Below, in pieces: positions 1 to 21,683 of a stretch of DNA of 37,334 bases. The notes beneath the pieces are model-generated. The model had not been told where the DNA came from. It ran no database searches and worked only from the letters and a program-made list of their open reading frames with translations. The stretch is from positions 1-37,334 of IMG/VR virus record IMGVR_UViG_3300044639_004012. One strand, given 5' to 3'. The stretch's first letter is position 1. Every line of letters begins with the position of its first letter. A program made the position numbers and the translations under genes. The DNA comes from a virus.

Positions 1-168
1 AAAAACTCAGATGGAAAAACTGTTTATACACGTTATGTGGGCGAACAACACGTAAAAGAAGATTGTAATAACTATATACCTTCGGCAAAGGAATGGATAA
101 ACAATTTGAACGAGAATAAAAGACCCATATGGATGTTGAAAACTGTAAAATTAGAATTCGAAGATTGA
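1..168 (+). CDS. C-terminal fragment of a hypothetical protein
   Basis: The first frame is open from the left edge to a TGA at 166-168, giving the last 55 residues of a protein that begins outside the window. The visible part contains YTRYVGEQHVKEDCNNYIPS followed by a Trp-rich stretch and ends in LEFED. I do not recognise the family. Its last 40 bases overlap the start of the next gene in another frame, a common compact arrangement in phages. Confidence 0.6.
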   Translation, partial: KNSDGKTVYTRYVGEQHVKEDCNNYIPSAKEWINNLNENKRPIWMLKTVKLEFED

Positions 169-743
169 ATTATTCTCACAGACATAAAATTTTATGGTTC
201 ACTCCTTTGAGTACAGCTTCGAGGTCTTGTACTCCAATTATGGAATATTTTGACTTCGACGTAATTCAAAATCATAATGAAGAAATAATTCAAGGTTGTG
301 ATGATTATACATTTATAATGAATGTTCATAATCCATATAAAAGGATTGTATCAATTTTTGATATGATTAAAAAAGAAAAAATATATTCAACTCTTAAATT
401 TGAAAGTTGGATACGGAAGATTGTAGATGATTCTGAAGAATCAAACACCAATCCCAATCAATTATGGTTATCAAAAATTTATTTGAACTTTAATAAAAAA
501 CCTGATTATTTAGTGAAAGTTGAAAATCTTTATGATGATTTGATGGATATAAAAATTATAGAAAATAATTTTAATGATAATCTTCAAATAATATTTTTTG
601 AAAATATTATAAAAAATAATTACAGAGTAACAGATTGTGACTATTGGAAAAGAGAATATAATGAAGACTTGTCTAAATTCATTTTTGAAAAATTCAAAAC
701 CGATTTCGAAATCTTTGGTTACGATAAAAATAGTTGGAATTGA
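129..743 (+). CDS. sulfotransferase-like protein
   Basis: The 204-residue protein shows the layout of small PAPS-dependent sulfotransferases. Near residues 20-33 it has KILWFTPLSTASRS, where the 5'-phosphosulfate loop is expected. Near residues 65-76 it has MNVHNPYKRIVS, matching the RNPYxRLVS type of 3'-phosphate-binding motif. The C-terminus (FIFEKFKTDFEIFGYDKNSW) resembles the usual end of the Gal-3-O/sulfotransferase-2 group. Members move sulfate from PAPS to hydroxyl or amino groups of sugars, lipids or proteins. The ATG at 129 is used because the 5' loop lies close to it; the gene overlaps its upstream neighbour by 40 nt. The first motif lacks a clear Lys, so activity is uncertain. The substrate is unknown. 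Confidence 0.6.
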   Translation: MDVENCKIRIRRLNYSHRHKILWFTPLSTASRSCTPIMEYFDFDVIQNHNEEIIQGCDDYTFIMNVHNPYKRIVSIFDMIKKEKIYSTLKFESWIRKIVDDSEESNTNPNQLWLSKIYLNFNKKPDYLVKVENLYDDLMDIKIIENNFNDNLQIIFFENIIKNNYRVTDCDYWKREYNEDLSKFIFEKFKTDFEIFGYDKNSWN

Positions 744-764: not shown

Positions 765-1490
765 ATGAAAAAAAACAAAAAAAGCCTCCCATCAATATTA
801 TCCTTAGAAGATAAAAAATATTTAAGGTCTTATACCAGATATTTCAGAGCCTTAGGAATGAAAGACGGTTTGATTGAAATTGATGTTGAAGAATATGATA
901 TAAATGACATTGATTTTTCTGAAATAAAATCTTTTTCAAATAATTTCAAAATTGAAGTTACTGAAGAATTACAAGAAATATTCTCAAAAATTTTTAATTT
1001 TATTTACGAAAAAGGTTTGTATGATGATAATCCCGATGTAGATGATATAAATTATAGAAGAGTTGAAATTGAAATAGATACAATCACTGAAACTATATCA
1101 GTATCTGATTTTTACACCTATTATGATACATCAGATACACAGGTATTGGTATATGACGACGAAGAGGAAATTGAACCACTTTTTGGTGCAGTGATAGAAA
1201 TGGCCAATAATGAAAATATACGAGATTCAATTTTTACTTTGAAGTTTTATGGTTCTGGCGATAGTGGATATATAGAGAGTAACTTTGAGAATAATCTATC
1301 TGTCCCTACTAATGTTGAAGATTGGTGCTATCAACAATTGTCAAACAATTATGGGGGTTGGGAAATAAACGAAGGCTCTCAAGGAGAATTTGTGTTTGAT
1401 TTAAACTCACGAGAAATTACTCTCAATTTTATAGAGAACGTAGAACAAAATGTGACCAACACAATTTTTGAAGAAAAATTTTCTAACTAA
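765..1490 (+). CDS. hypothetical acidic protein, possibly DUF6878-like C-terminus
   Basis: This 241-residue, Asp/Glu-rich protein has no signal peptide or membrane segment. Its C-terminal part, around residues 186-215, contains WCYQQLSNNYGGWEINEGSQ and a following FVFDL. This resembles the small DUF6878 family, although I cannot confirm that by search. The middle contains a YYDTSDTQVLVYDDEEE stretch suggestive of beta strands. The ATG at 765 is the first codon after the ATATTTAT motif. The gene is followed within 30 nt by tRNA-Leu. No function can be assigned. Confidence 0.75.
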   Translation: MKKNKKSLPSILSLEDKKYLRSYTRYFRALGMKDGLIEIDVEEYDINDIDFSEIKSFSNNFKIEVTEELQEIFSKIFNFIYEKGLYDDNPDVDDINYRRVEIEIDTITETISVSDFYTYYDTSDTQVLVYDDEEEIEPLFGAVIEMANNENIRDSIFTLKFYGSGDSGYIESNFENNLSVPTNVEDWCYQQLSNNYGGWEINEGSQGEFVFDLNSREITLNFIENVEQNVTNTIFEEKFSN

Positions 1491-1516
1491 AATTTTTTTT
1501 ACTATTTTTGAATATC

Positions 1517-1605
1517 ACCTGAGTGTTGAAATAGGTAGACAAGAGAGACTTAAAATCTCTTGGACAGTAATGTCCGTGCCGGTTCGACTCCGGCCTCAGG
1601 TACCA
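1517..1605 (+). tRNA. tRNA-Leu (UAA)
   Basis: The acceptor ACCTGAG (1517-1523) pairs fully with CTCAGGT (1595-1601). The anticodon stem AGAGA/TCTCT encloses CTTAAAA, giving anticodon TAA at 1551-1553. A long variable arm (GGACA/TGTCC), typical of class II tRNAs, and a GCCGG/CCGGC T stem are present. The 3' CCA is encoded at 1603-1605. Confidence 0.95.
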
Positions 1606-1615
1606 AAAAAAAGAT

Positions 1616-1831
1616 ATGGAAAGACTATTTTCGCCCGTCAGTTTGATTTCGATTACCGATGCTTTAAAAGAAAAAGCGTTGGAAATTAAATATATTGGTG
1701 ATATCTCCGATTTAGGCAATGAGGTCGGAGTAACCGTTGGTGAATTTTATCAAAATATGAATGAAGAAGAAATTGAGTTATTCATTCAAGGATTTAGACA
1801 TGGCGTTTCACTAACAAATGGTAATCACTAA
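1616..1831 (+). CDS. small hypothetical protein
   Basis: This 71-residue protein begins 10 nt after the tRNA-Leu CCA end and may be translated from the same transcript. It has an amphipathic helical look (DALKEKALEIKYIGDISDLG, then EFYQNMNEEEIELFIQGFRHG). There is no Shine-Dalgarno sequence, signal peptide or membrane segment. The family is not recognised. Its acidic, Asn/Glu-rich composition matches neighbouring phage proteins, which supports it being a real gene. Confidence 0.65.
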   Translation: MERLFSPVSLISITDALKEKALEIKYIGDISDLGNEVGVTVGEFYQNMNEEEIELFIQGFRHGVSLTNGNH

Positions 1832-1845
1832 TTGACACCCTACAC

Positions 1846-1876
1846 TTGACACTTTTATGAAAAAGAATATATTTAT
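1846..1876 (+). promoter_or_regulatory. putative promoter of the tRNA-operon leader
   Basis: TTGACA (1846-1851), 16 nt, then TATATT (1868-1873), overlapping ATATTTAT (1869-1876). A nearly identical TTGACACTTT...TATATTTAT arrangement occurs at 5167-5198. The motif ends 6 nt before the leader ATG at 1883. Confidence 0.45.
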
Positions 1877-1882
1877 TTTAGT

Positions 1883-1963
1883 ATGAAAACAACGAACTAT
1901 CATATAGAGTTTAGTGAGCAACAAGAAATTTGTTGGGTGACTAACCTATGCGTGGTTCGGTAA
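1883..1963 (+). CDS. candidate 26-residue leader peptide
   Basis: A short open frame starts at ATG 1883 and stops at TAA 1961-1963. For 26 codons it is unusually rich in rare residues: His7, Cys17, Trp18 and Cys23, plus several Glu and two Ile codons. Its last four sense codons (Cys-Val-Val-Arg, 1949-1960) are exactly the 5' arm of the hairpin that competes with the downstream terminator. This position suggests a regulatory leader rather than a functional product. Downstream lie tRNAs for Glu, Cys, His, Ile and Trp, all amino acids read in the leader. Confidence 0.4.
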   Translation: MKTTNYHIEFSEQQEICWVTNLCVVR

Positions 1964-2027
1964 ACATTTAAACTCCTGAAGAGTTATATATACAACCTCG
2001 GACTACGCAAGTGGTTCGGGGTTTTTT
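1949..2027 (+). promoter_or_regulatory. candidate transcription attenuator (antiterminator versus terminator)
   Basis: Bases 1949-1960 (TGCGTGGTTCGG) can pair with 1998-2009 over 12 consecutive positions, three of them G-U. Bases 1998-2006 are also the 5' arm of the terminator at 1996-2021. The two hairpins exclude each other. The competing strands share the direct repeat GTGGTTCGG at 1952-1960 and 2011-2019. The leader peptide frame ends inside this element. A ribosome reaching its stop codon would cover the first arm and favour termination before the tRNA genes. Confidence 0.55.
1996..2027 (+). terminator. rho-independent terminator upstream of the tRNA cluster
   Basis: An 11-bp stem (1996-2006 with 2011-2021, three G-U pairs) closes on a GCAA tetraloop and is followed by six T residues (2022-2027). 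It lies between the leader frame and tRNA-Glu, so it would stop transcription before the tRNA cluster unless the alternative hairpin forms. Confidence 0.8.
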
Positions 2028-2082
2028 GTTTTCAGAAGTTTTTTGGTTGTTTAAAATATTAGTTGTAATTTTGTTCAAGAAC

Positions 2083-2154
2083 GCTCGGTTCGACTAGTGG
2101 TTAGGTCACCACCCTTTCACGGTGGTTGCACGGGTTCGAATCCCGTACCGAGTA
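2083..2154 (+). tRNA. tRNA-Glu (UUC)
   Basis: The acceptor GCTCGGT (2083-2089) pairs with ACCGAGT (2147-2153). The anticodon stem CCACC/GGTGG encloses CTTTCAC (anticodon TTC). The T arm is ACGGG-TTCGAAT-CCCGT. CCA is not encoded. Confidence 0.95.
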
Positions 2155-2171
2155 CAAAAAAAACAAAACCT

Positions 2172-2981
2172 ATGAGTAAAACATGTTTAGTTATTTACGT
2201 TGGAAATGGATATTCCGATTTGGAAATGTCACATGATGGGGCATATACCTATTCAGTAGATATGAAAGAAAATTTTGAAAATCATCAAGAAAAAATTTTC
2301 AATCCCATTCGAGAAGAAGGTTATGAAGTAGAATTTGCTCTTCTCACAAATAAACATGAAAAATATGCGGAGTATTTCAGATTTTATAATGCAATATTTT
2401 TGGATTACGAAGAAGTAAGTTTACATGACGAAGAGGTTATGAAAAATTTTTACTTTTGGCGTTATAATGTTCCTCCAGGTAATTTTCGCAGTGGTGGAAG
2501 ATTTAAAAAATTGAAAAACAAAATTCCTGAATATGACATTTATGTTATAATCAGAACAGATACTTGGTTTTTGAAAGGGCTGAATGAACTGACGGTAGAT
2601 TATGATAAAATGAATTGGTTGTGGCCCGAAACAGATTGGCAAATGTTTACCGAATTCAAAGAAGCATACCTAAGTGATGGTAAAACTGAATTTTGGCCTT
2701 GGTTAAAACATAATCGTGTCAATGGGAATGTTTTTAATATTGTACCGAAAAAATTTTTCAGAATGTTCACAAATTATATTTGGATGGAACACGCCGCCCT
2801 TTATGCAATGTTATCCGAACTTTCTCCTTTGGTTACTTTGGAGAATGTGAATATGATGTTGGGTATGGATAAATGTTATTGTACTGATATCAGGTATTGT
2901 CAAAATCCTGTTTATACTTTCAACAAAAAAATTATCAAAAATAGGTCTGATGCAAAACTTGACGGTTACGGAAAAAAATAA
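2172..2981 (+). CDS. putative glycosyltransferase-like protein
   Basis: This 269-residue cytosolic protein starts at ATG 2172. An upstream in-frame ATG lies inside tRNA-Glu and is rejected. The N-terminus (KTCLVIYVGNG) looks like a first Rossmann-type strand. The central YDIYVIIRTDTWFLKG (near residues 120-135) resembles the DxD-like region of polysaccharide glycosyltransferases. The middle is rich in Trp and Phe. It sits between tRNA-Glu and tRNA-Cys, ending 6 nt before the latter. A glycosyltransferase role is only a fold-level guess, and the donor and acceptor are unknown. Confidence 0.4.
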   Translation: MSKTCLVIYVGNGYSDLEMSHDGAYTYSVDMKENFENHQEKIFNPIREEGYEVEFALLTNKHEKYAEYFRFYNAIFLDYEEVSLHDEEVMKNFYFWRYNVPPGNFRSGGRFKKLKNKIPEYDIYVIIRTDTWFLKGLNELTVDYDKMNWLWPETDWQMFTEFKEAYLSDGKTEFWPWLKHNRVNGNVFNIVPKKFFRMFTNYIWMEHAALYAMLSELSPLVTLENVNMMLGMDKCYCTDIRYCQNPVYTFNKKIIKNRSDAKLDGYGKK

Positions 2982-2987
2982 ATAGAA

Positions 2988-3059
2988 GGTCGGTTGGCCG
3001 AGTGGTTTAGGTGAAAGTCTGCAAAACTTTCTACACAGGTTCGATTCCTGTACCGACCT
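2988..3059 (+). tRNA. tRNA-Cys (GCA)
   Basis: GGTCGGT (2988-2994) pairs with ACCGACC (3052-3058). The anticodon stem AAAGT/ACTTT encloses CTGCAAA (anticodon GCA). The discriminator base is T, as expected for cysteine. CCA is not encoded. Confidence 0.93.
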
Positions 3060-3065
3060 CAACAT

Positions 3066-3137
3066 GGTGGTTGTAGCCTAATGGTAGGGCGGAAGTTTGT
3101 GGCACTTCATGTGAGAGTTCGATTCTCTCCAATCACA
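3066..3137 (+). tRNA. tRNA-His (GUG)
   Basis: GTGGTTG (3067-3073) pairs with CAATCAC (3130-3136), one G-U. The extra G at -1 typical of tRNA-His is encoded at 3066. The anticodon stem GAAGT/ACTTC encloses TTGTGGC (GTG). The T arm is GAGAG/CTCTC. The discriminator appears to be A rather than the usual C. Confidence 0.9.
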
Positions 3138-3143
3138 CACAAC

Positions 3144-3217
3144 GGAAGTATAGCTCAGCTGGTCAGAGCGCTATTCTGATACGATAGATGCCAGTGGTTC
3201 GAATCCACTTACTTCCA
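3144..3217 (+). tRNA. tRNA-Ile (GAU)
   Basis: GGAAGTA (3144-3150) pairs with TACTTCC (3210-3216). The anticodon stem CTATT/GATAG (one T-G) encloses CTGATAC, anticodon GAT. The next gene's ATG (3219) begins one base after the discriminator, so RNase processing of this tRNA would leave an almost leaderless mRNA. Confidence 0.9.
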
Positions 3218-3218
3218 C

Positions 3219-3737
3219 ATGAGACGGAAAATAATTTTCATAGATGTGGATGGTCCTTTGGCTTGGGGAACTTGGGGAGATGGGAGAGTTACGCTCAACG
3301 AAAATACGAAGACCTTCACGATTCCTTATCCTTGGGTTGAGGAAGATTGTCAAGCATTACAAAAAATTTGTAATGAGACAAATGCTTCCTTGGTTATAAG
3401 CTCAGATTGGAAAAAATTTTTTAGTATAGTTCAATTAAAAAGAGTTTTCGAATATTACGGTGTGACAGCTCCAATTGTTGACATCACAACACATCAAGAC
3501 CTTTGGCTTAAAATGAGTAGACCTAGTATTGATTGGGAGAGAGCTGCACAAATTGTTAAATGGGCTAAAGACAATAAAATTTCAAATTGGATAGCAATAG
3601 ACGATTTGAATTTGAAGGGAGAATTTAAATGGATGAGAATACCACAGTGGAGACATGTTCAGGTTGATGGAGATTTTGGTCAAGGTGGAAGACTCAGAGA
3701 TAAAATTGATGAATGTATTAAAAAACTTGAAAGATGA
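3219..3737 (+). CDS. HAD-superfamily phosphatase (HAD_SAK-like)
   Basis: The 172-residue protein opens with KIIFIDVDGPLAWG, the DxDG motif I in which the first Asp is the HAD nucleophile. LVISSDWKKFFS near residues 58-69 supplies the motif II Ser. IAIDDLNLKGEF near residues 126-137 carries the late acidic pair. This order and spacing resemble the HAD domain of Swiss Army Knife RNA repair proteins (PF18143). Such domains dephosphorylate small molecules or nucleic acid ends. It is embedded in a tRNA cluster, so a role in RNA end repair is possible but not shown. It overlaps the next gene by 4 nt (ATGA). Confidence 0.75.
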   Translation: MRRKIIFIDVDGPLAWGTWGDGRVTLNENTKTFTIPYPWVEEDCQALQKICNETNASLVISSDWKKFFSIVQLKRVFEYYGVTAPIVDITTHQDLWLKMSRPSIDWERAAQIVKWAKDNKISNWIAIDDLNLKGEFKWMRIPQWRHVQVDGDFGQGGRLRDKIDECIKKLER

Positions 3738-9804: not shown

Positions 9805-10413
9805 TTATTTCTTTTTCTTTAGTTCACTCAGTGCGTTTACAGGAATAATTGTTCCTACAGGATATGAAGACCCCACAGGTGCCTGAGTTACAGATGTTTC
9901 ACCTGGATGAGCTCGTAATGCTCTTCTCATCGGAAACGCTAATTCATTAAGTGGACCAAAACATTCTGCAAGTGTTACACCGTTAACCTTATTAGGTAAT
10001 ACAACACAAGGCATACACCACATATTACTCATTCCACCTTTAGGTCCTTTAGATATTACGAATGTTCTATTTACCGTTGGTAAATTTTCCCAAGTTGGAG
10101 CTTGAGGGACACTGTCATAATACCAAAAATAAGACCAAACAGTTTTATCTGTTCCATCAGGTGTAAGTGAAGGATTCGGAACCAAGATTTTGTTTGCTAC
10201 TGAAGGACCATCCATAACAGGACAAACCGCAACACCCTCTAAGAACTTTTTACCTTCCACAGTAATAGTTTTACCCGTTGCCTTAGCAGAAGAAGCCCCA
10301 CAAAAAGCAAATTTTCCCTCAACAATTGTGAGTGCTTTCCCTCTATGAAGTTTCTGAGTGAATGATGTTGTTCCTAATCCCAACATCGCAAGTAGTAATA
10401 GTAGTTTTTTCAT
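9805..10413 (-). CDS. secreted protein of unknown function
   Basis: The 202-residue precursor has a clear signal peptide (MKKLLLLLAMLGLGTTSFTQ), cleaved probably after the Gln region. The mature part has several Cys residues (FCGASS, VCPVMDG, then MWCMPCVV and ECFG) that could form disulfides in the periplasm. It is rich in Pro and Gly. I do not recognise a family; the WCMPC pair is not in a thioredoxin-like context. It is the first gene of an operon with the PspC gene (18-nt gap), driven by an ATATTTAT motif and preceded by the upstream operon's terminator. Confidence 0.7.
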   Translation of the reverse strand: MKKLLLLLAMLGLGTTSFTQKLHRGKALTIVEGKFAFCGASSAKATGKTITVEGKKFLEGVAVCPVMDGPSVANKILVPNPSLTPDGTDKTVWSYFWYYDSVPQAPTWENLPTVNRTFVISKGPKGGMSNMWCMPCVVLPNKVNGVTLAECFGPLNELAFPMRRALRAHPGETSVTQAPVGSSYPVGTIIPVNALSELKKKK

Positions 10414-10464: not shown

Positions 10465-11670
10465 TTAATTACCCTTCAGTGGAAATCGTGTCCACCCTTG
10501 TGTCCAATTCGGGGTTGTCAAAACTTGTAGTTCCGAAATTGAAAAGGTTTTCTCAATATTACCTTGAGATAACGCTTTGGTTTTCATATCTGATGAAGTA
10601 AATAATGTAGATGTTGATTTGAAATTTAGAGTTGGGTCAAATGAACCAATCTGATTATTTTCAAACTTTGAAATATTATCTTTGTAAAACGTTGCTGTTT
10701 CATTCGATTCAAGTGAAAACGCACCTTTCATATGACCAGCAATCACTGAATTTGTAATAGTGAATTGCGTTGCTCTCCTCCATCTTAAACCCAAATTATG
10801 GTTAGTCAGTGAACCTGTTTCATTCGGACCAACAATAACCATATTGGATAATTTTGGGTGTGTAAAAGGTTGTGCGGATGAACCTGTTCCATCATTATCA
10901 CATTCTACGCCATTTCCCGCATCCCCATTATCTACAAATTGTGGGTCTCTTTTTGCAATACTAAAAGAAACTGACCCTCTATAACCGAAGTCAAAATCAA
11001 AATCGTCATCAGCTGTTGCAAACGCGTATAAGTTTTTTGCGTTTACTGTTCCGCCGAAGAATTCAAACGCGTCATCATTTGCATAAATTGTCTGAACATT
11101 TTCGATTACAGTACCACTTCCCACTCCTCCGAGAGTCAATGCATTTATCTCTGAATTTGGGAGTGCCGCTATTCCTGCATATTCAATTCTAACATATTTT
11201 AGAACCCCACTGTTGTCCAAATCATTTGTACCACCATAAGGTCTACCAATTCCACCTTCTATCGTAGGTTCGGAACTTCTGTTGGTTGTTGCTCTACCCA
11301 AGATGACAATTCCACCCCAATCGCCAGGTGCTCTTTGTCCTTCAGGTTTTCCTGAGGTAAAAACAATAGGTTTCAGTTGAGTTCCCTCAGCCAAAATCTG
11401 TGCTCCTCTTTCAATACACAGAGCCCCTTTTTCTGCTATGTCAGAAATTATTTTTGTACCTGGTTGAATAATCAACTTTGCACCATCTGTGATGTAAACA
11501 TAACCTTTGAGTGTCCATACTTTGTCTGATGTCAGTGTTGTGGTTGAGTTGATTGAACCAGTGAGTGTTGTGGAAGAGGGAACGTTAATTGGTCCATCAC
11601 CACCGCCAAGATTTTTTTCACAACTTGTAAAAAGGAGTGAGATTGCTAAAACCGATAAAAATTTTTTCAT
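10465..11670 (-). CDS. outer-membrane lipoprotein partner of the TonB-dependent receptor
   Basis: The 401-residue precursor has a lipoprotein signal (LAISLLFTSC; Cys17 lipidated). The body looks like a right-handed beta-helix: VYITDGAKLIIQPGTKIIS, then GDWGGIVILGRA, IEYAG and ENVQTIYANDDAFEFFGGTV. The acidic stretch TADDDFDFDFGYRGSVSF follows. Proteins of this kind are commonly encoded next to TonB-dependent receptors in Bacteroidota, as here, where it overlaps the receptor stop by ATGA. It would sit on the outer membrane and probably works with the receptor. The ligand is unknown. The family is normally cellular, so its presence in a phage suggests acquisition from a host. Confidence 0.75.
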   Translation of the reverse strand: MKKFLSVLAISLLFTSCEKNLGGGDGPINVPSSTTLTGSINSTTTLTSDKVWTLKGYVYITDGAKLIIQPGTKIISDIAEKGALCIERGAQILAEGTQLKPIVFTSGKPEGQRAPGDWGGIVILGRATTNRSSEPTIEGGIGRPYGGTNDLDNSGVLKYVRIEYAGIAALPNSEINALTLGGVGSGTVIENVQTIYANDDAFEFFGGTVNAKNLYAFATADDDFDFDFGYRGSVSFSIAKRDPQFVDNGDAGNGVECDNDGTGSSAQPFTHPKLSNMVIVGPNETGSLTNHNLGLRWRRATQFTITNSVIAGHMKGAFSLESNETATFYKDNISKFENNQIGSFDPTLNFKSTSTLFTSSDMKTKALSQGNIEKTFSISELQVLTTPNWTQGWTRFPLKGN

Positions 11671-13919
11671 AAATTTAAATTTAATGAAGCTGAAAGAGTT
11701 TGTTCATTATTTGTTTTTATTAACTCTCTCGTGTTTATTTTTTGATAATATACCGACGGTTGTGCAAGTAAGTCACCAACCGAAAGTTTGATTTCACCTT
11801 TGTTGAATTTTTTTAAGAAAACAAAATCAATTATATCTCTCGAATTTTCGAATATGTCAGGATATCCTTGGAATCCGACTGCGGATATTCTATCACCAAC
11901 TCTATTGTATGAGATACTGAATGTGTTATTTTTCTTATGAATATTCAATCCCCCGTTGAGAACATAATTTGATTGTCCCTGAAGTTGTCTCGAATATCCG
12001 TTCACATTTACCTTCGAACCCGAAAAAAATGAGTTTGTGTACAGGTCTAACCATTTTGTTATTTTCTTTCTAATTTCAAATTCAACACCGTATACATTTG
12101 CATTTTTGGGATTCATAAAAGTTAGAAGTAGATTTGATGGAACAGAACCATCAGCAACAACTTGTTCAATAGGTCTGATAAATTTTTTTCCAAAAAGTGC
12201 AATTGATAAGTTTTCTCCTACTTTGGGATAAATTTCATATTTTAAATCAAGGTTGTAGATATCAGTTTTCTCAAGGGTTGGATTACCAAGAATTTGTGCG
12301 TTTCTAATAAAGTCATAATATGCAAAATTTGCAACTTCTCTGAATTCAGGTCTTGATAAAGTTTTAGAACTTGAAACTCTCAATTTTGTTTTGTCCCAAC
12401 TGTAAGATAAGTTTATGGAAGGTAATAAATCAAAATATGTTCTGTTTACGTTGACCTTTTGACCACTAAAGTCTGATGTGTTTACATCAAACAGATTATA
12501 CTCCGTTCTAAAACCACCATTTATTTTAAATTTTTTGTAAGTTTTATCAATTTGAACATATCCACTTCCCAAGTCAAAATCCGCTTTGTATCTGTCTGTG
12601 TTATTTGTTATTTCGTTGAGTAAGTCCAAAGCATCGTATCTGAAAATTCTTGCTTGAAAATTTCTCATTTTTTTAAGATAAGAACCACCAATTTTTACAG
12701 CTCCGAAATCTTTATTTATTGACCCGTTAAATGAGTTTTCATTCATTACAGACCAAAATCTATAAGTGTCCCTCCAAGCTGTAGTGTAAGTAGAGTTCGA
12801 GCCAAGTGATTTTGTTATTGGATTCACCCTATAATCAGGTTGGTCTCTCAACATCAAATTCCAACCTAAATTGAAATCAAGTGTTTTTATCTTTCCCTCA
12901 ACCTGTGAATTAACAACTGTTTTGATGATGTTGTTTGATGAGTTACTTCTTACGTCCTGAACGTTATCATAGTTTTCACCTTCCCTTGTGAGGTATGAGT
13001 TTTCAATTTGATGGTTGAATAGAGTTTTCCAAGAATATTTCGATTCACCCAAGTAAGTCAAATTCAGTAAACCATTTACTAATAAAATTTGGGTAAACAA
13101 CGTGTCTCTATATTTGTATGCAAGTTCTGTTGATGATTGATAATCTTGTCTATCAATATAGTTGACGGTATAGTTCTTTCTTGAACTAGCAGATGTTAAA
13201 AGAGACCACTTACTTTTTTTCAAACCGAATGAAAGATTACCGTTCAAGTTGGGGAGTGAATTCAAAATTTTATAAGGGGGTTGACTCAGTAACTTTGTGA
13301 AAGTTCTTCTATCTCCATTTGTTCCAGTTCTGAAAACGTATGTTGATGGAAAATTCTGTGGGAAGAGAATATAATCCACCGATTTGAAATTTCGAAACGT
13401 TGAAACGGTCCCGAAACTTACTCCGAGACCCATTGAAAAAAAATTGTTTGATACTTCTTTTGTTGTAATCTGCACCACACCTCCACCAAAATCACCAGGT
13501 AAAGATGGCAATGCAGATTTGGAAACCATAACGTTATCAATCAAAGATGCGGGAATTATATCAAACGAAAAAGCCCTCCTGTCAGGTTCCGTTGATGGTA
13601 AGATGGTTTTGTTAAGAGTTGCTGAATTGTATCTATCAGATAATCCCCTTACCAAAACAAATTTATCATTTTGTATGGTTACACCATTTACTCTTTTTAG
13701 TGCGTCACCAACAGTTCTATCAGGTGTTTTTTTTATTGATTCACTTGAAAGTCCATCTGATACAACTACATTATTTCTTACAGAATTTATAATCGAAACA
13801 GTTGTTTCTTTTTTAATTGCCGAGCGAATTTTGACCTCGGACATTGTTTTGTTGAATAATGTATCTTGAGAATGACCGAAAGTTGGTATTAAAAGACACA
13901 AAATAATTTTTTTAATCAA
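11667..13919 (-). CDS. TonB-dependent outer-membrane receptor
   Basis: The 750-residue precursor starts with a TTG codon followed by a signal peptide (IKKIILCLLIPTFGHSQ); no ATG gives a signal peptide. The plug domain (about residues 35-155) is very clear: TPDRTVGDALKRVNGVTIQN, VLVRGLSDRYNSATLNKTIL and PSLPGDFGGGVVQITTKE. The rest is a beta-barrel with alternating aromatic strands ending in LSASLNLNL. Cellular relatives usually carry an extra N-terminal carboxypeptidase-regulatory-like domain, absent here, so this is a compact form. TonB-dependent receptors import large ligands using the host TonB-ExbBD system and are frequent phage receptors. It forms a coupled operon with the downstream lipoprotein. 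Confidence 0.9.
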   Translation of the reverse strand: MIKKIILCLLIPTFGHSQDTLFNKTMSEVKIRSAIKKETTVSIINSVRNNVVVSDGLSSESIKKTPDRTVGDALKRVNGVTIQNDKFVLVRGLSDRYNSATLNKTILPSTEPDRRAFSFDIIPASLIDNVMVSKSALPSLPGDFGGGVVQITTKEVSNNFFSMGLGVSFGTVSTFRNFKSVDYILFPQNFPSTYVFRTGTNGDRRTFTKLLSQPPYKILNSLPNLNGNLSFGLKKSKWSLLTSASSRKNYTVNYIDRQDYQSSTELAYKYRDTLFTQILLVNGLLNLTYLGESKYSWKTLFNHQIENSYLTREGENYDNVQDVRSNSSNNIIKTVVNSQVEGKIKTLDFNLGWNLMLRDQPDYRVNPITKSLGSNSTYTTAWRDTYRFWSVMNENSFNGSINKDFGAVKIGGSYLKKMRNFQARIFRYDALDLLNEITNNTDRYKADFDLGSGYVQIDKTYKKFKINGGFRTEYNLFDVNTSDFSGQKVNVNRTYFDLLPSINLSYSWDKTKLRVSSSKTLSRPEFREVANFAYYDFIRNAQILGNPTLEKTDIYNLDLKYEIYPKVGENLSIALFGKKFIRPIEQVVADGSVPSNLLLTFMNPKNANVYGVEFEIRKKITKWLDLYTNSFFSGSKVNVNGYSRQLQGQSNYVLNGGLNIHKKNNTFSISYNRVGDRISAVGFQGYPDIFENSRDIIDFVFLKKFNKGEIKLSVGDLLAQPSVYYQKINTRELIKTNNEQTLSASLNLNL

Positions 13920-15517: not shown

Positions 15518-15915
15518 TGGTGGACCCGAGCGGAGTCGAACCGCTGTCTTGTTCGCGATAACTATAAGTGACTACACGTTTATTACAACATTGTTTCTCA
15601 ATGTTCCGAAATATTGAGTTTGATATATGTGGGAACCAAACTCACAAACAACCTGGTCTCAGAGTTATTTTGGAGGAGCTCTGACCTGTGACCCCTATAA
15701 CGGACTTCTGTTCCTAGGTTTATGTCCTTCCCGACCCGAAAGTTGAGTTCCTAATTTAATTAAGCCTCAACAACAGCTTCCTCAGCGATAAGACCGAGAG
15801 CAGCCATTTTAGCAAAAGTATTGCCAGTTATTATTCAAATCAGTTTTTAAGGAGTTAATTCAGCTCCTACGTGCCACCTATAACTACACACGCCAATCAA
15901 TACCGTGACGAGCCC
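15518..15915 (-). ncRNA. ssrA: transfer-messenger RNA (tmRNA)
   Basis: On the minus strand the RNA starts GGGCTCG (15915-15909), which pairs with CGGGTCC (15528-15522). The end is A-CCA, encoded at 15521-15518. The T arm AGCGG-TTCGACT-CCGCT and the preceding GACAG match the highly conserved tmRNA 3' end. Length is 398 nt, normal for tmRNA. The tag frame runs from a likely GGC resume codon to TAA, about 21 residues. It begins GNTFAKMAA and ends IAEEAVVEA, quite unlike the usual -YALAA tail. tmRNA rescues stalled ribosomes and tags the unfinished protein. The resume codon is inferred, not proven. Confidence 0.92.
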
Positions 15916-15935
15916 ATAATTTCAAATAACTTTCA

Positions 15936-15966
15936 CAAATATAACAATAAATATTTTAATTCCAAA
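15936..15966 (-). promoter_or_regulatory. Bacteroidota-type promoter of the tmRNA
   Basis: Minus-strand TTTG (15966-15963), 19 nt, TATATTTG (15943-15936), a perfect consensus match. The mature 5' end is 20 nt downstream, leaving a short leader for RNase P. An ATATTTAT motif (15954-15947) lies within the spacer. Confidence 0.75.
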
Positions 15967-15970
15967 CCTC

Positions 15971-15977
15971 TATTTAT
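15971..15977 (+). promoter_or_regulatory. TATTTAT motif, 4 nt before ATG 15982
   Basis: TATTTAT-CATT-ATG; it decides the start of the following gene. Confidence 0.5.
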
Positions 15978-15981
15978 CATT

Positions 15982-17025
15982 ATGGGTAAATTCGATTCTT
16001 TTGTTGCTTTGAAAAACTTTATTCAGGGAAAAATTGATTCTTATGAATTGATGAATTCAATTCCTAAAATAAATAAAGTTGAGGTGAATTACGATGATTT
16101 AAGTAAAAGTATTATAGTTTATGATTTTGAAAGGGAATCTGATTTGTTGAAATTGATAGGTGTATCTGATGATGATATTTGGTTTTATGATGCGGTGACT
16201 TCACCTTATGGAAGTTATTCTATATACACCACCGATACTTCAGAGACAGATTTTTACGAGGGTTATGGGATATGGGATGAATTAGACGATGACAATTGGG
16301 ATAAATTGAAGACTATTTCAAATTTCATCATGAAAAAACCTTTTTCACAAGATACTGATTTTTTGAGTGAATTCGCAGTGTTACTGAATAAGTTATTTCC
16401 GAAGGAAGTTAGGAGTATGATAACTGATTATGCTCAGGAGAGGGACAATCAAATGACTGATAGTGCTGAGAGAGTAATCGAAAATGACCTTGATGATTAT
16501 TTCTCACAAGTCGGTGTAAAATTCACGAATGGTTTACTCAAAATTGAAATTGGAAAATTATTCGACCAGTATGTTAGTACGGGTAAATTAACACTATCAT
16601 TAGAAAAAATCTTAGAAAATTTTCTGAAATCAGATTACACACCAGAGGGCGGATGGGGCGATTCAACGTGGGAATATCAAGAATCTGAAGGATTTGACAC
16701 AGAGAGATTTAATAGATATGTGGAAAATAACTTGGATTCTATACTCGAAAAAATTATGGAAAATGAGGAGCAGGCTCAAAGGTTTCTTACTATGATTCAA
16801 AGAATCGAAAAAAAATTTAGACCTAATGTTTTATATGATTTACCCAAAGACAAATTTAATTCAGTTAAATTTTCTATACAAGGGTATGATTATCCAACAC
16901 AAACTATAATTGTAAAACTAAGAAAGGACCTCAAACAAAAAGAATTCAAAATGACGGAGGAAAACTTTTATAATTTACTATATCAGCCAGAATTATTTAA
17001 AGTTGGAGAATTACATAATTTGTAG
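15982..17025 (+). CDS. hypothetical acidic protein
   Basis: The 347-residue protein is read from ATG 15982. The open frame continues 37 codons upstream but would run into the tmRNA gene, and the TATTTAT motif sits 4 nt before this ATG. The sequence begins GKFDSFVALKNFIQGKIDSY and is rich in Asp, Glu, Phe and Tyr. It includes DDDIWFYDAVTSPYGSYSIY and, near residues 215-232, GGWGDSTWEYQESEGFD. No motif, signal peptide or membrane segment is recognised. It ends 12 nt before the M20 peptidase ATG. Confidence 0.7.
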   Translation: MGKFDSFVALKNFIQGKIDSYELMNSIPKINKVEVNYDDLSKSIIVYDFERESDLLKLIGVSDDDIWFYDAVTSPYGSYSIYTTDTSETDFYEGYGIWDELDDDNWDKLKTISNFIMKKPFSQDTDFLSEFAVLLNKLFPKEVRSMITDYAQERDNQMTDSAERVIENDLDDYFSQVGVKFTNGLLKIEIGKLFDQYVSTGKLTLSLEKILENFLKSDYTPEGGWGDSTWEYQESEGFDTERFNRYVENNLDSILEKIMENEEQAQRFLTMIQRIEKKFRPNVLYDLPKDKFNSVKFSIQGYDYPTQTIIVKLRKDLKQKEFKMTEENFYNLLYQPELFKVGELHNL

Positions 17026-17033
17026 TACATTTG
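17003..17033 (+). promoter_or_regulatory. Bacteroidota-type promoter before the M20 peptidase
   Basis: TTG (17003-17005), 20 nt, TACATTTG (17026-17033), ending 4 nt before ATG 17038. It lies within the 3' end of the upstream gene and would give a leaderless mRNA. Confidence 0.5.
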
Positions 17034-17037
17034 TGCT

Positions 17038-17868
17038 ATGCAAAACGATTTAAATTTCCTAAAAGAGGTTCTATCAGTACCAACAGTGACTTATCGTGAA
17101 GATTTGATGATAAGATTCATAGTTGATTGGTTAGAAAAAAATAAAATTGAAAATTATGTTGACGAACATGGTAACGTTTATGCGACCAAAAAAATTTCTG
17201 AAGTGGATGATGATTTTCATTATCCTTGCGTTGTATCTCACACTGATACTGTTCACTCCATTAAACATTTAACTATTCAAGAGGAACAATTACCTAATGC
17301 TCAAGGGGATTTAAAATTATCGTTGAAGGCCTACGATGAGAACGGTTCCCCAACAGGTATAGGAGGGGACGATAAAGCTGGTGTTTTTGCTTGCTTGAAA
17401 TTGTTATCAGAATTACCTTTTCTAAAAGCGGCGTTTTTTGTTTCCGAAGAAACAGGTTGTCATGGTTCAAGAAATTGTGATGATAAATTCTTCAAAAATG
17501 TAGGCTACGCTATCCAATTTGACGCTCCTGAAAATTGGATGGTTACTGAAACTTGTTCAGGTCAAGTTATGTTTGATAGGGAGTCGGATTTTTTCAAAAA
17601 TTGTAATGAAGTTCTAACTGAGAACATGCATAAAGATTACATCGATTATATGGTCCACCCTTATACTGACGTATTTGCGTTACGTAGTAAATTTGATTTT
17701 TCTTGTATAAATTTTTCTATTGGATACTATGATTATCATTCTCCAAACGAGTATGTTGTTGTAGAAGACGTTTACAATGGAATCAAAATGGGAAAACTCA
17801 TGATTGAAAAACTTGGTTATAAGCTACATTTCAAAAAAGCAAAACACCCAAAAAAGTTTTATTTATAG
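17038..17868 (+). CDS. M20-type (peptidase T-like) metallopeptidase
   Basis: The 276-residue protein has the zinc-ligand order of M20 di/tripeptidases. HTD is at residues 68-70 (VVSHTDTVH), the bridging Asp in GIGGDDKAG is near 107-115, and the catalytic Glu pair in SEETGCHGS is at 136-144. A late FDAP and the final His in YDYHSPNEY complete the set. It is shorter than most M20 enzymes (about 400), and the dimerisation lid between the catalytic halves seems reduced. Such enzymes finish the breakdown of short peptides to amino acids in the cytosol. It lies beside other proteolysis genes. Confidence 0.82.
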   Translation: MQNDLNFLKEVLSVPTVTYREDLMIRFIVDWLEKNKIENYVDEHGNVYATKKISEVDDDFHYPCVVSHTDTVHSIKHLTIQEEQLPNAQGDLKLSLKAYDENGSPTGIGGDDKAGVFACLKLLSELPFLKAAFFVSEETGCHGSRNCDDKFFKNVGYAIQFDAPENWMVTETCSGQVMFDRESDFFKNCNEVLTENMHKDYIDYMVHPYTDVFALRSKFDFSCINFSIGYYDYHSPNEYVVVEDVYNGIKMGKLMIEKLGYKLHFKKAKHPKKFYL

Positions 17869-18519
17869 AAATTTTTCTAATTTTTCTATAAAAGGTTTAA
17901 CCATGGGATGGTCTTGTATGTCGGAATAATCCATCCCCTTTGACTTCATGTATTTTATTGTCTCAATTATTCTCTCTAAACTTGTCCCAACAATTTTTGA
18001 TGCTTGAGGATATTGCTCAATGAATTGGGACAATCTGAATATTTTTTTTACGTCCTCAATCGGCATTTTCAAACTAAAAACTAACCTACCTAGCATGTTT
18101 TTTGCATATTGGTCTGCATCTAATTCCATCTCCCAATATTGTTCATAAATTTTTTCGAAATCTTCCAAATCAAAATCAGAGAGAGGATTGGGCATTTTTA
18201 TATCTGAAATTTGTTGTTCGTGCCTTATTTCATGAAATAAAGTGTAGAGAAAATCTCCCAAAGATGACATTTGACTCGGAGCACAAATGATGATTTGGTC
18301 TCTTGTTCTGACACCTAAGTATGTTGTACAAGCATTCAAAAATTTTACATTATAATTAGATTTTTCTATGAAATTTTTTACAAAATTTTTAATCATAGGA
18401 ATCCGGTCCAAATAAGCTTGTTGAAACTGGGATTCAAACCTTTTCAACACATTATCTAAATTAGACGGTGAGTCTTTGGATTCGGACTCACTAAAATTTT
18501 TTTTGATTGAATTACGCAT
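17863..18519 (-). CDS. zincin-type metallopeptidase (HExxH)
   Basis: The 218-residue protein carries LYTLFHEIRHEQQ, with HEIRH at residues 96-100. About 30 residues later comes WEMELDADQYAKNM, whose Glu132 is a good third zinc ligand for a gluzincin-like arrangement. There is no signal peptide, so it acts in the cytosol. The gene overlaps the 3' end of the M20 peptidase by 6 nt on the opposite strand and has its own TATTTAT motif 5 nt before ATG. ImmA/IrrE-like relatives cleave specific regulators, but no helix-turn-helix partner is seen here. Confidence 0.72.
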   Translation of the reverse strand: MRNSIKKNFSESESKDSPSNLDNVLKRFESQFQQAYLDRIPMIKNFVKNFIEKSNYNVKFLNACTTYLGVRTRDQIIICAPSQMSSLGDFLYTLFHEIRHEQQISDIKMPNPLSDFDLEDFEKIYEQYWEMELDADQYAKNMLGRLVFSLKMPIEDVKKIFRLSQFIEQYPQASKIVGTSLERIIETIKYMKSKGMDYSDIQDHPMVKPFIEKLEKFL

Positions 18520-18524
18520 TTTGT

Positions 18525-18531
18525 ATAAATA
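18525..18531 (-). promoter_or_regulatory. TATTTAT motif, 5 nt before ATG 18519
   Basis: Minus-strand TATTTAT-ACAAA-ATG, immediately after the Clp-gene terminator. Confidence 0.5.
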
Positions 18532-18534
18532 CAG

Positions 18535-18560
18535 AAAAAGGGACTTATCGTCCCTTTTTT
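18535..18560 (-). terminator. terminator of the ClpC-like gene
   Basis: AAAAAGGGAC (18535-18544) pairs perfectly with GTCCCTTTTT (18550-18559) around a 5-nt loop. On the minus strand it overlaps the stop codon and ends in a T run. Confidence 0.85.
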
Positions 18561-20554
18561 GTAATTTTTATTTCATCTTTTTCAACTTTCAAATGATAAG
18601 TTTTTCCTTCGATAAATTTTCCTGTCAGAACTTCTTCAGAGATTAAATCCTCAACTTTGTCTTGTATTGCTCTTTTCAAAGGTCTGGCACCATACAATTC
18701 ATCGTACCCAATTTTTGATAAATATTCAATCAGAGTATCATCGTAGGTTACTGTGTACTTCAAATCATAAAGTCTCTTAGACAGTTTTTTCAGTTCAATT
18801 TCAGTAATTTTTTTGATATCCTCTTTAGAGAGAGAATTAAAAACAATTGTGTCGTCAATTCTATTCAAGAATTCAGGTGAAAAGAAATTTTTCATTTCTT
18901 TCATTAAAACTTGTTTTCTTGCTTCTTCATTTGAATAAGAATTTGAAAATCCAATACCAGTACCAAAATCTTGTAATTTTTTTACACCTAAGTTTGTGGT
19001 CAAAATAATCAAAGTATTTTTGAAATTGATTTTTCGACCGAGTGAGTCTGTAACGTGACCCTCATCTAAAATTTGTAAAAGTATTGTGAAAACATCTTTA
19101 TGCGCTTTCTCAACTTCATCGAATAAAATTACAGAGTAAGGTTTGTTTTTAACTTTTTCAGTCAACTGTCCGCCCTCATCATATCCCACGTAACCTGGAG
19201 GTGCACCAACTAATTTTGAAACGGTGTGTTTTTCTTGGTACTCACTCATGTCCACTCTAATAAGAGCATCTTCTGAACCGAACATTTCTTTCGCAAGTTG
19301 TTTGGCAAGGTGTGTTTTACCGACACCAGTTGAACCTAAGAAGATGAAAGAACCAATTGGTCTATTTGGGTCTTTGATTCCTAAACGATTCCTCTTTATA
19401 GATTTGACCACTTTGATGACTGCTGAATCTTGTCCTATGACTTTACCCGTGAGTTCTTTGTCCAAATTTATAAGTGATTTAGTATCATCTACAGTCATCT
19501 TGTTCACAGGAATTTTCGTCATGTTTGAGACCACATCATAAACCATCGTCGTAGTTATTTCCTGTTTTTGTTTTTCCATCTCCTCATCAAATTTTTTCTT
19601 TTCCGAGTCCAACTTGTCTAACAACTTTTTTTCTTTATCCCGTAGTTGAGCTGCTTGTTCGTAATTCTGTTTTTTTACAACGTCAATTTTTTGTTGTTTT
19701 ATTTCTGCGGCTTTTTTCTTCAGTTCTTCGATAACTTCAGGAATTTTTACTTCGGTCTGCATACGTGCACCAACTTCATCCAAGATATCAAAAGCTTTAT
19801 CAGGGAACTCTCGGTCTGTGATATATCTCTCAGCTAATTTGACGCAAATTTCAATTACTTCGTCTGAGTATCTAACCTTGTGATATGATTCGTATTTAGA
19901 ACGAATATTTTTTAAAATTTCGATAGTTTCTGCAACAGAAGATGCTTCTACAATAACTTTTTGGAATCGTCTTTCTAAAGCTCCATCTTTTTCAATGTTT
20001 TTTCTGAATTCATCCAATGTTGTTGCTCCAATAATTTGAATCTCACCACGAGAGAGGGCTGGTTTGAAAATATTGGAACCATCCATAGAACCTGCAGAAT
20101 TACCAGACCCAACTAAAGTGTGAACCTCATCAATAAAAACAATAATGTTCGGGTTTGCTTGTAATTCTTCAATAATAACTTTCATCCTTTCCTCGAATTG
20201 CCCCCTATACTTTGTTCCGGCAACGACAGAGGTTAAATCTAAATTCACAATCCTTTTATCAATTAGATTTTTTGGGCATTCACCATTCACAATCTTCATT
20301 GCCAAACCTTCAACAATCGCAGTTTTACCACAACCAGGTTCTCCTAAAATAATGGGGTTATTTTTTTTTCGTCTAGAAAGAATTTGTGCAATCCTCAAGA
20401 TTTCTCGGTCTCTACCAATTACAGGGTCTAATTTACCTTCAGATGCAAGTTTGTTTAAATCTCTACTGAAATTGTCCAAAACTGGAGAAGAACTGTCAGA
20501 GGTTTTTTGTTTTCTACTTGTTTTCATGTCATCATCATCCATTAGTTCATTCAT
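18545..20554 (-). CDS. ClpC-like AAA+ unfoldase lacking the N domain
   Basis: The 669-residue protein has two AAA+ modules. D1 has Walker A GEPGCGKT (71-78), pore loop AGTKYRGQFEER (112-123) and Walker B FIDEVHTL (140-147). A UVR-type coiled middle segment is at about 293-312 (KKQNYEQAAQLRDKEKKLL). D2 has Walker A GSTGVGKT (407-414), pore loop GYVG (454-457) and Walker B LFDEVEKAH (478-486). GTGIGFSN holds IGF at 534-536, the loop that docks on ClpP; disaggregase ClpB lacks it. The usual 140-residue N domain is replaced by a 25-residue polar tail. It should unfold proteins for a ClpP, probably the host's, with altered substrate or adaptor choice. Confidence 0.92.
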   Translation of the reverse strand: MNELMDDDDMKTSRKQKTSDSSSPVLDNFSRDLNKLASEGKLDPVIGRDREILRIAQILSRRKKNNPIILGEPGCGKTAIVEGLAMKIVNGECPKNLIDKRIVNLDLTSVVAGTKYRGQFEERMKVIIEELQANPNIIVFIDEVHTLVGSGNSAGSMDGSNIFKPALSRGEIQIIGATTLDEFRKNIEKDGALERRFQKVIVEASSVAETIEILKNIRSKYESYHKVRYSDEVIEICVKLAERYITDREFPDKAFDILDEVGARMQTEVKIPEVIEELKKKAAEIKQQKIDVVKKQNYEQAAQLRDKEKKLLDKLDSEKKKFDEEMEKQKQEITTTMVYDVVSNMTKIPVNKMTVDDTKSLINLDKELTGKVIGQDSAVIKVVKSIKRNRLGIKDPNRPIGSFIFLGSTGVGKTHLAKQLAKEMFGSEDALIRVDMSEYQEKHTVSKLVGAPPGYVGYDEGGQLTEKVKNKPYSVILFDEVEKAHKDVFTILLQILDEGHVTDSLGRKINFKNTLIILTTNLGVKKLQDFGTGIGFSNSYSNEEARKQVLMKEMKNFFSPEFLNRIDDTIVFNSLSKEDIKKITEIELKKLSKRLYDLKYTVTYDDTLIEYLSKIGYDELYGARPLKRAIQDKVEDLISEEVLTGKFIEGKTYHLKVEKDEIKITKKGR

Positions 20555-20614
20555 AGTATGTATTTTTTACAAAGATGTATCAAAAAATGTACACAAACAA
20601 ATAATTTGTAAAAT

Positions 20615-20650
20615 TGTCATAATAATTTTTTTTTACATGACATTATGACA
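20615..20650. promoter_or_regulatory. inverted repeat between divergent chaperone genes
   Basis: TGTCATAAT (20615-20623) and ATTATGACA (20642-20650) form a perfect 9-bp dyad with an 18-nt spacer. It lies 61 bp from the Clp gene start and 69 bp from the Hsp20 start. It does not match CIRCE. A shared operator is a reasonable reading. Confidence 0.45.
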
Positions 20651-20719
20651 TTTATCTGTTTACGGCACAAAAGTTGAATCTAATTATATAAATAATAAAC
20701 CTCAAAAACAAAAAAAACT

Positions 20720-21115
20720 ATGATTTTATCAAACAATGAATTGAACAGAATTTTCGATGAAATTTTCAACGGAACTTCAAACTCTTATTACAAAACCTCA
20801 GTAATTTCAAAAAATTCAAATGAAGAGAATTATGAAATAAACCAAACTAAGGATGGTGCATATCTTTTCTTCGAGGTTCCAGGTTTTAACAAATCTAATT
20901 TGAAAGTTGAAATGGAAGACGGAATTTTAATTATTGAAGGAAAAAGAGTTTATAAGTTGAACGGAGAGGAAAAAACTAAATCTTTTTCCAAAGAATTTAA
21001 AATTGGTAAGGAGTATAATTCATCCGAGATTGAGGCCACGATAGAAGACGGTCTACTAACGGTATTCGTACCTAATTATAAAAAGCAAGAGAAAAAAAGA
21101 ATCAATCTCCTTTGA
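20720..21115 (+). CDS. Hsp20/alpha-crystallin small heat-shock protein
   Basis: The 131-residue protein has a short N-terminal arm and an alpha-crystallin domain from about residue 35. Signature parts are GAYLFFEVPGFNKSNLKVEM, DGILIIEGKR, and EIEATIEDGLLTVFVPNYKK with the conserved GLL. The C-terminal RINLL could serve as the I-x-I-like tail. Such proteins hold unfolding clients for refolding; T4-like cyanophages also encode them. Here it is divergent from the ClpC-like unfoldase with a shared intergenic dyad. Just upstream is TATATAAATAATAAA, which resembles the T4 late promoter TATAAATA. Confidence 0.92.
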   Translation: MILSNNELNRIFDEIFNGTSNSYYKTSVISKNSNEENYEINQTKDGAYLFFEVPGFNKSNLKVEMEDGILIIEGKRVYKLNGEEKTKSFSKEFKIGKEYNSSEIEATIEDGLLTVFVPNYKKQEKKRINLL

Positions 21116-21117
21116 TG

Positions 21118-21148
21118 AAAAACCCTCAATTAGTTTGAGGGTTTTTTT
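21118..21148. terminator. bidirectional terminator between Hsp20 and the oxygenase
   Basis: AACCCTCAA (21121-21129) and TTGAGGGTT (21135-21143) form a perfect 9-bp stem flanked by A and T tracts. It serves both convergent genes and overlaps the last codons of the minus-strand gene. Confidence 0.88.
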
Positions 21149-21683
21149 CGCACCAATCTATTATCAAATGAACTCTGTCTTCATCACCCTCGTTCATAAA
21201 AGAGTGAGGTAATTTATCATTATTCATTTCCCAAATTTCACCAACTTTCATGTTTAGAGATTCTTCACCTACTTTGAATATACACCTTTCATTTGTAATA
21301 ATGGGAATATGTATTCTTCTTGAGAATTTGAAAGTATTATTTGCACTATCTACGTGAGTTGGTATAATAGTTTTTTTGTAAAGCTTGGTTAAAATTGCTC
21401 TGAGTAAATAACCTAACCCTTCGGTGTGTTTTTTTATAACCTCGGATATATTTTTCAAATCATCCTCAAAGAATACGTAATTTTTCGTTAAAACAGGATT
21501 GAAATTAGTTGAAAAAAAATCGTCATCATAAACTATTTTTATTGTTTGTGTGTTGACCATATCAGTACATGCCTTTTGTCTCAAAGTAAATTCATTCCAA
21601 TCCACCTTATTTTCATTCAAAATTTTCAAAATATTGGACACGTCGTAGTTCCCATAATATCTAAAAGATTCATTTACATTCAT
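21126..21683 (-). CDS. aspartyl/asparaginyl beta-hydroxylase-like 2OG-Fe(II) oxygenase
   Basis: The 185-residue protein has, near residues 110-130, PTHVDSANNTFKFSRRIHIP. It gives the HxD iron ligands and the RxHxP pattern of the Asp/Asn hydroxylase family. The distal PHSFMNEGDEDRVHLIIDW supplies the second His and the Arg that binds 2-oxoglutarate. The central GEIWEMNN is also typical. Family members hydroxylate side chains of proteins or free amino acids; phage members have unknown targets. It is expressed opposite to Hsp20 and shares a terminator with it. Confidence 0.78.
   Translation of the reverse strand: MNVNESFRYYGNYDVSNILKILNENKVDWNEFTLRQKACTDMVNTQTIKIVYDDDFFSTNFNPVLTKNYVFFEDDLKNISEVIKKHTEGLGYLLRAILTKLYKKTIIPTHVDSANNTFKFSRRIHIPIITNERCIFKVGEESLNMKVGEIWEMNNDKLPHSFMNEGDEDRVHLIIDWCEKNPQTN

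Follow-up and report, generated by a model that had tools for sequence, protein, structure and literature searches.

Genes for transfer-messenger RNA (tmRNA, ssrA) are known from mycobacteriophages (Bxz1 and others) and Bacillus phage G (PMC4131195), and tmRNA together with SmpB is known from huge phages (PMC7162821). Clp subunits also occur in some jumbo phages. In the unfoldase ClpC of Staphylococcus aureus, the N domain sits over the pore, and its removal combined with a broken M-domain contact (F436 or R443) leads to adaptor-free degradation of SsrA-tagged green fluorescent protein (GFP-SsrA) (PMC5699869, PMC12521514). Here, we analyzed a locus in which ssrA lies close to a gene for a ClpC-type unfoldase devoid of the N domain. 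It is carried by IMG/VR record IMGVR_UViG_3300044639_004012, a viral fragment of 37,334 bases, which was analyzed over its full length and is referred to below as the window. We propose, giving the idea an even chance of being right, that jumbo T4-like phages infecting Bacteroidota run a trans-translation and ClpCP degradation route of their own and that this locus forms its core.

The window tmRNA matched the covariance model RF00023 over its full length (1-374) with 79.1 bits (gathering score, 47), including the tRNA-like domain, the pseudoknotted ring, and the encoded tag. The alanine identity pair G3:U70 was present in it and in all 162 related phage tmRNAs, and its resume codon is GGC. 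An earlier note on this DNA had reported a tmRNA with an odd tag; the gene is indeed intact according to both ARAGORN and RF00023, and its tag is unlike those of Bacteroidota hosts. Weak RF00023 matches (ca. 15 to 90 bases, apparently tRNA sized) were not counted. The reading frame of the tag was set by an alignment of 65 tmRNAs from relatives, by which the L048 tag (EKKQ...) and the short AEEATVVA tags proposed by ARAGORN were rejected as frame errors; the tmRNAs of LR756508 and LR756504 yielded no trustworthy tag. A SmpB gene was found in only 4 of 50 clpC-bearing records, three of which have it less than 1 kb from ssrA, and most of these phages would use the SmpB of the host.

The tags of this phage group, termed type I, form a family of 81 distinct versions (including those from the tmRNA-first scan described below) of 20 to 22 residues with the pattern GN[VT]xxK[ML]xxxGL...VA. 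G11 is found in all of them, L12 in 79, and K6 in 71, and the N-terminal two thirds are strongly conserved as a peptide. Across the first 12 tag codons, the ratio of nonsynonymous to synonymous variation (pN/pS) was 0.52 in the tag frame and 0.86 and 1.43 in the other two; since the ratio is lowest in the tag frame, the peptide itself is constrained. The last residue is nearly always Ala, and none of the versions ends in LAA or MAA. The 27 tmRNAs found in Bacteroidota hosts nearly all encode tags of 9 residues, GENNYALAA and GESNYAMAA being examples. The view that the tag is phage specific holds. The proposal that -VVEA is the degron was too narrow: an EA ending occurs in just 2 of the 81 versions, and conservation lies elsewhere in the tag, notably at G11-L12. 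The start of the window tag, GNTFAKMAA, resembles the host tag GNTQYAMAA (L370), and one may speculate from this likeness that a host-type tag was extended, burying its AA end. Other phage tmRNAs encode tags of a second kind, type II, with 23 or 24 residues and host-like YAVAA or YALAA ends (typically ...FEDxMAFVGADYAVAA). Their carriers (L150, L179, L194, L201, L239, L425, and others) are likewise tailed phages; their sheath, baseplate, and polymerase genes are T4-like, and they have no clpC.

The linkage of ssrA and clpC was determined in two samples. In the one starting from clpC, there were 80 viral contigs with relatives of the window gene (97 to 68% identical); Listeria, Staphylococcus, and Enterococcus "phage" contigs and the CAKLQ records were disregarded as apparently bacterial DNA. 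In all 64 relatives that reach the tmRNA position, clpC was followed downstream by a tmRNA encoded on its own strand, and the remaining 16 contigs stop short of the expected site. The co-occurrence check called for in the earlier note thus came out in favor of linkage between ssrA and the N-less clpC across a large and deeply diverged phage group. The gene order is constant, clpC-(HExxH peptidase)-M20 peptidase-ORF347-ssrA; in L072, the M20 gene and ORF347 are displaced, and the contig stops just past ORF347. Among whole clpC records, a tmRNA above the cutoff was present in 42 of 50. Because packaging genes are syntenic as well, an independent sample was drawn starting from the tmRNA, using a DNA pattern search that gave 96 records classified as type I or II. 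clpC was present in 65 of the 76 type I records versus none of the 20 type II records (Fisher test, 4e-13, phylogeny not corrected for). The type I exceptions were contigs ending near the tmRNA, short contigs, and members of the GNVYN lineage, where the order is looser and clpC lies 14 to 24 kb away but is still present in records of sufficient length, except G083 (180 kb), the sole large type I record without it. Both samples support the conclusion that ssrA and the N-less clpC have been retained together.

The earlier description of the unfoldase as ClpC-like, without an N domain, and with Walker, pore, and IGF loop motifs was borne out. The Walker, pore, and GIGF motifs are readable in its sequence, and its best match was S. 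aureus ClpC, which aligned from its residue 144 on (735 bits). Only 24 residues precede D1, versus 181 to 219 in host ClpCs, no Clp_N match was among the 25 Pfam matches listed, and there is no room for an N domain because the divergent Hsp20 gene starts at 20720. The loss extends throughout the phage group, whose ClpCs usually have 18 to 27 residues ahead of the D1 anchor, a few being longer. The window protein is 55 to 60% identical to Bacteroidota ClpC, and the phage proteins fell on one side of a branch in the tree (support, 95/60). The ClpP loop, GIGF or GVGF, is retained in 93 of 95 phage ClpCs. The phage protein is a natural N-less ClpC and, by analogy with the S. aureus variants, its pore should be open to C-terminal tags. 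A covariation of the loop type with the presence of a phage ClpP, seen in the first 20 records, was rejected since G063, G097, G119, and G132 have GVGF together with ClpP. As a separate observation, in a distant lineage of these phages, clpC is split by an intein whose insertion point is precisely the cysteine of Walker A (GEPG|C...HN|CGKT). In L423, the intein halves lie in two overlapping open reading frames (ORFs) (reverse strand, 951-1280 and 1279-3516), pointing to a split intein or a frameshift, and in L422 (628-2868), the C-terminal part of the intein alone was seen.

A ClpP is encoded by 20 of the 50 clpC records and by further tmRNA records, including six of the seven records of 270 to 322 kb (G004, G014, G054, G081, G120, and G132). 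The closest long relative of the window, G009, which shares its exact tag (L018/L158) and a 100% identical neighboring gene (o9805), has its clpP downstream of ssrA at a distance of about 25 kb; the equivalent site would lie about 10 kb past the left end of the window. The best PDB matches of the phage proteins were ClpPs (E value, 3e-47), and the Ser-His-Asp triad (equivalents of S97, H122, and D171) was kept in all 16 compared. The docking pocket of all 16 has His62 and Val or Ile at position 189 (Escherichia coli numbering); host ClpPs have Tyr62 nearly throughout and, in the main ClpPs, Leu189. Judging from these residues, the re-cut pocket suggests a dedicated partner. The huge phage LR745206 (634,780 bp; L149) was also seen to encode two different ClpPs, one of which shares the T60/H62 pocket of the phages studied.

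The route that we propose would run as follows. If expressed, the phage tmRNA would be charged by the host alanyl-tRNA synthetase and, helped by SmpB (mostly that of the host), would free ribosomes stalled on broken mRNAs, probably largely host mRNAs, adding the phage tag of 20 to 22 residues to the unfinished products. The N-less ClpC, its pore uncovered, would grip this C-terminal tag directly, without an N-domain adaptor, unfold the protein, and pass it via the GIGF loop to the phage ClpP or, where the phage has none, to that of the host; the M20 peptidase may then trim the resulting peptides. Reading of the tag by ClpC is suggested by the co-retention of the two genes together with the analogy to S. 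aureus ClpC lacking the N domain.

Several observations weigh against this route. Terminase and portal genes are as syntenic as ssrA and clpC, so that gene order alone reports clade history; the contrast between type I and type II phages may go back to a single evolutionary event, and synteny within one clade cannot prove that ClpC reads the tag. The repressive M-domain contacts are kept, with the R443 equivalent present in 97 of 97 phage ClpCs and an aromatic residue at 436. The M-domain brake thus seems, by its residues, to be intact, and an activator of the phage ClpC is predicted for this reason; no degradation of GFP-SsrA was seen with S. aureus ClpC deprived of its N domain as long as the M domain was intact (PMC5699869). 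Some type I tags finish in VAA, near a host ClpX degron, and G096 (322,372 bp, a near-complete size) has clpC and tmRNA without ClpP. The equal synteny of the packaging genes and the VAA endings also speak for an explanation by ribosome rescue only, in which the tmRNA frees ribosomes and disposes of broken mRNAs, host proteases clear the tag, and clpC is near by virtue of the gene order of the clade, as does the existence of T4-like type II phages that have a tmRNA with a host-like tag and no clpC. We consider this possible but unlikely, since the conserved N-terminal two thirds of the type I tag would be needless for rescue alone and clpC is kept even where its adjacency to ssrA has been lost.

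Two other explanations accept a role for the unfoldase and assign it differently. ClpC, with or without ClpP, could be a general disaggregase or protease that helps in host takeover or in assembling virions; its substrates would then have nothing to do with the tag, and Hsp20 would feed it aggregates. The position of clpC next to packaging and head genes, an adjacent Hsp20 at 21 of 81 loci, and the absence of a tmRNA above the cutoff from several huge phages that have both ClpC and ClpP are in keeping with such a role. Loss of the N domain, however, takes away the usual binding site for adaptors and casein, most members have no Hsp20, and the tmRNA is never missing where this could be checked; we regard the explanation as improbable. 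About equally improbable, or slightly more so, is the model of the earlier note, in which the phage supplies no peptidase and the N-less ClpC docks to host ClpP and redirects it to phage-tagged proteins. The phage GIGF loop does resemble the GVGF and GIGF loops of Bacteroidota host ClpC, and in G096, host ClpP would have to serve, unless ClpC acts without a peptidase there. Against this stand the ClpPs of six of the seven relatives of 270 kb or more and that of G009, and the window, being a fragment, stops short of the expected clpP site. Because relatives encode their own ClpP, that of the host is not the default partner; G096 and lineages like it are the only ones for which it is still plausible. 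Returning to the proposed phage-run route, a stricter form of it would make the tag an orthogonal degron, legible to no unfoldase but the N-less phage ClpC with its re-cut-pocket ClpP, proof against host ClpXP, and so forming a private channel, with ORF347 as a possible activator; we think this form doubtful.

The features of the locus are collected in Table 1. All five parts that the earlier note had combined into one island (tmRNA, M20 peptidase, HExxH peptidase, unfoldase, and Hsp20) were seen in the window, but the HExxH peptidase and Hsp20 (25 and 21 of 81 loci, respectively) are not fixed parts of it.

Table 1. Features of the ssrA-clpC locus in the window
Feature	Position	Strand	Basis or occurrence
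tmRNA (ssrA) with encoded CCA and G3:U70 pair	15518..15915	-	ARAGORN, Rfam RF00023
Tag reading frame GNTFAKMAALGLIAEEAVVEA plus stop	15760..15825	-	ARAGORN coding part 91-156; 65-tmRNA alignment
Bacteroidota-type promoter TTTG-N19-TATATTTG	15936..15966	-	Pattern scan; just upstream of tmRNA
ORF347, 347 residues, divergent from tmRNA, constant neighbor	15982..17025	+	In 69/81 loci, rest truncated
M20-type metallopeptidase, 276 residues	17038..17868	+	PF01546, 2.2e-5 (just above cutoff); phrog_4191, 5.6e-34
Putative zinc metallopeptidase, HEIRH ... E132/D136, accessory	17863..18519	-	25/81 loci
ClpC-type double-AAA+ unfoldase without N domain, 669 residues	18545..20554	-	D1, UVR-type M domain, D2, ClpP loop
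GIGF ClpP-docking loop, unfoldase residues 533-536	18947..18958	-	Alignment with 183 ClpC sequences
Hsp20 small heat shock protein, accessory	20720..21115	+	PF00011, 3.2e-15; 21/81 loci

The start of ORF347 was placed by its homologues, as the listed start at 15871 would overlap the tmRNA. This gene is fast evolving and always divergent from the tmRNA, and in many relatives, the protein has an additional N-terminal domain (e.g., CYYGTNTKWCTT). Its confident structural model (predicted local distance difference test [pLDDT], 90) had no PDB match, and the model neither supports nor excludes an SspB- or MecA-like adaptor; by inference only, ORF347 is a candidate activator that might release the M-domain brake of ClpC. 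The M20 gene was found in 76 of 81 loci, the remaining five being truncated, and the di-zinc ligands (H68, D70, D111, E137, E138, D162, and H234) were invariant in all 76 homologues. With 276 residues, the protein is short for a classical two-domain M20 enzyme with a lid (dimerization) domain. It could trim Clp products, and the return of amino acids to phage synthesis, suggested in the earlier note, may be a further role of this constant neighbor. In relatives of the putative zinc metallopeptidase, the HExxH motif is invariant and E132/D136 are conserved; no family match was found for this protein, and its fold matches were weak and zincin-like, none with an E value below 0.001.

The window encodes nine tRNA and tmRNA genes and carries T4-like terminase, portal, and prohead protease genes. 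By portal protein, the nearest isolates were the Microcystis phage Mel-JY01 and the Flavobacterium phage immuto (36 to 38% identity), neither of which had a tmRNA above the cutoff. A scan of the whole window with the Bacteroidota-type promoter pattern TTTG-N16-22-TAnnTTTG gave 17 matches versus 3.5 expected, none of 100 shuffles reached 17, and TAnnTTTG was found 5' of the tmRNA in 143 of 161 cases. The promoter type, taken together with the affinity of clpC to its Bacteroidota counterparts, makes a member of the Bacteroidota the very probable host.

Other genes of the window deserve mention in their own right. At 11667-13919 (minus strand), there is a TonB-dependent-receptor-like outer membrane barrel with a plug domain (PF14905, PF07715), unusual cargo for a phage, flanked by a 401-residue companion that travels with it in relatives (10465-11670) and a 202-residue ORF (9805-10413); this cargo is present in just 4 or 5 of the 80 relatives. 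A sulfotransferase-like protein is encoded at 129-743 (plus strand; PF03567, 9e-6), and an aspartyl/asparaginyl beta-hydroxylase-like gene, which few relatives have, is at 21126-21683 (minus strand).

If the proposed route exists, viruses own both halves of the bacterial pathway of ribosome rescue and degradation, with the tag matched to the protease, which would explain how jumbo phages handle ribosomes stalled on shattered mRNA. Tools for protein control would also gain a new degron family and a ClpC that is adaptor-free by nature. The existence of type I phages (tmRNA and clpC) beside type II phages (tmRNA only) makes the link between tag and protease directly testable. The remark in the earlier note that no described phage system combines such parts agrees with our literature search, in which, with subscription journals and preprints outside its scope, neither this tag family nor the pairing of a phage tmRNA with a ClpC/ClpP of the same phage was found described.

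The phage tmRNAs reported previously likewise involve ssrA, but the available parts of those reports (PMC4131195, PMC7162821) describe no matching unfoldase or conserved tag family, and the word "Clp" is absent from the main text of PMC7162821. LR756502, LR745206, and Salicola phage SCTP-2 likewise have a phage ClpC or ClpA-like ATPase and at least one ClpP, and differ in having no tmRNA above the cutoff. With the bacterial tmRNA-SmpB/ClpXP system, the locus shares the tRNA-like domain, G3:U70, a resume codon, an encoded tag, and the RF00023 match. It differs in its tag (20 to 22 residues with the core GNxxxK[ML]xxxGL, instead of 9 residues of the GENNYALAA type), in the pairing with an N-less ClpC in place of ClpX, and in that SmpB is usually not phage encoded. 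Compared with ClpC-ClpP of S. aureus and Bacillus subtilis, the phage ClpC has the same D1, UVR M domain, D2, pore loops, and ClpP loop, whereas the N domain is gone in the whole phage group and the phage ClpP has H62 for a near-universal Tyr; since MecA-type adaptors need the N domain, they cannot bind the phage ClpC in the known way. The closest counterpart of its architecture is the engineered S. aureus ClpC that lacks the N domain and carries R443A or F436A (PMC5699869, PMC12521514), in which the SsrA tag reaches the pore directly; the phage protein likewise has no N domain but keeps R443 and the aromatic residue at 436.

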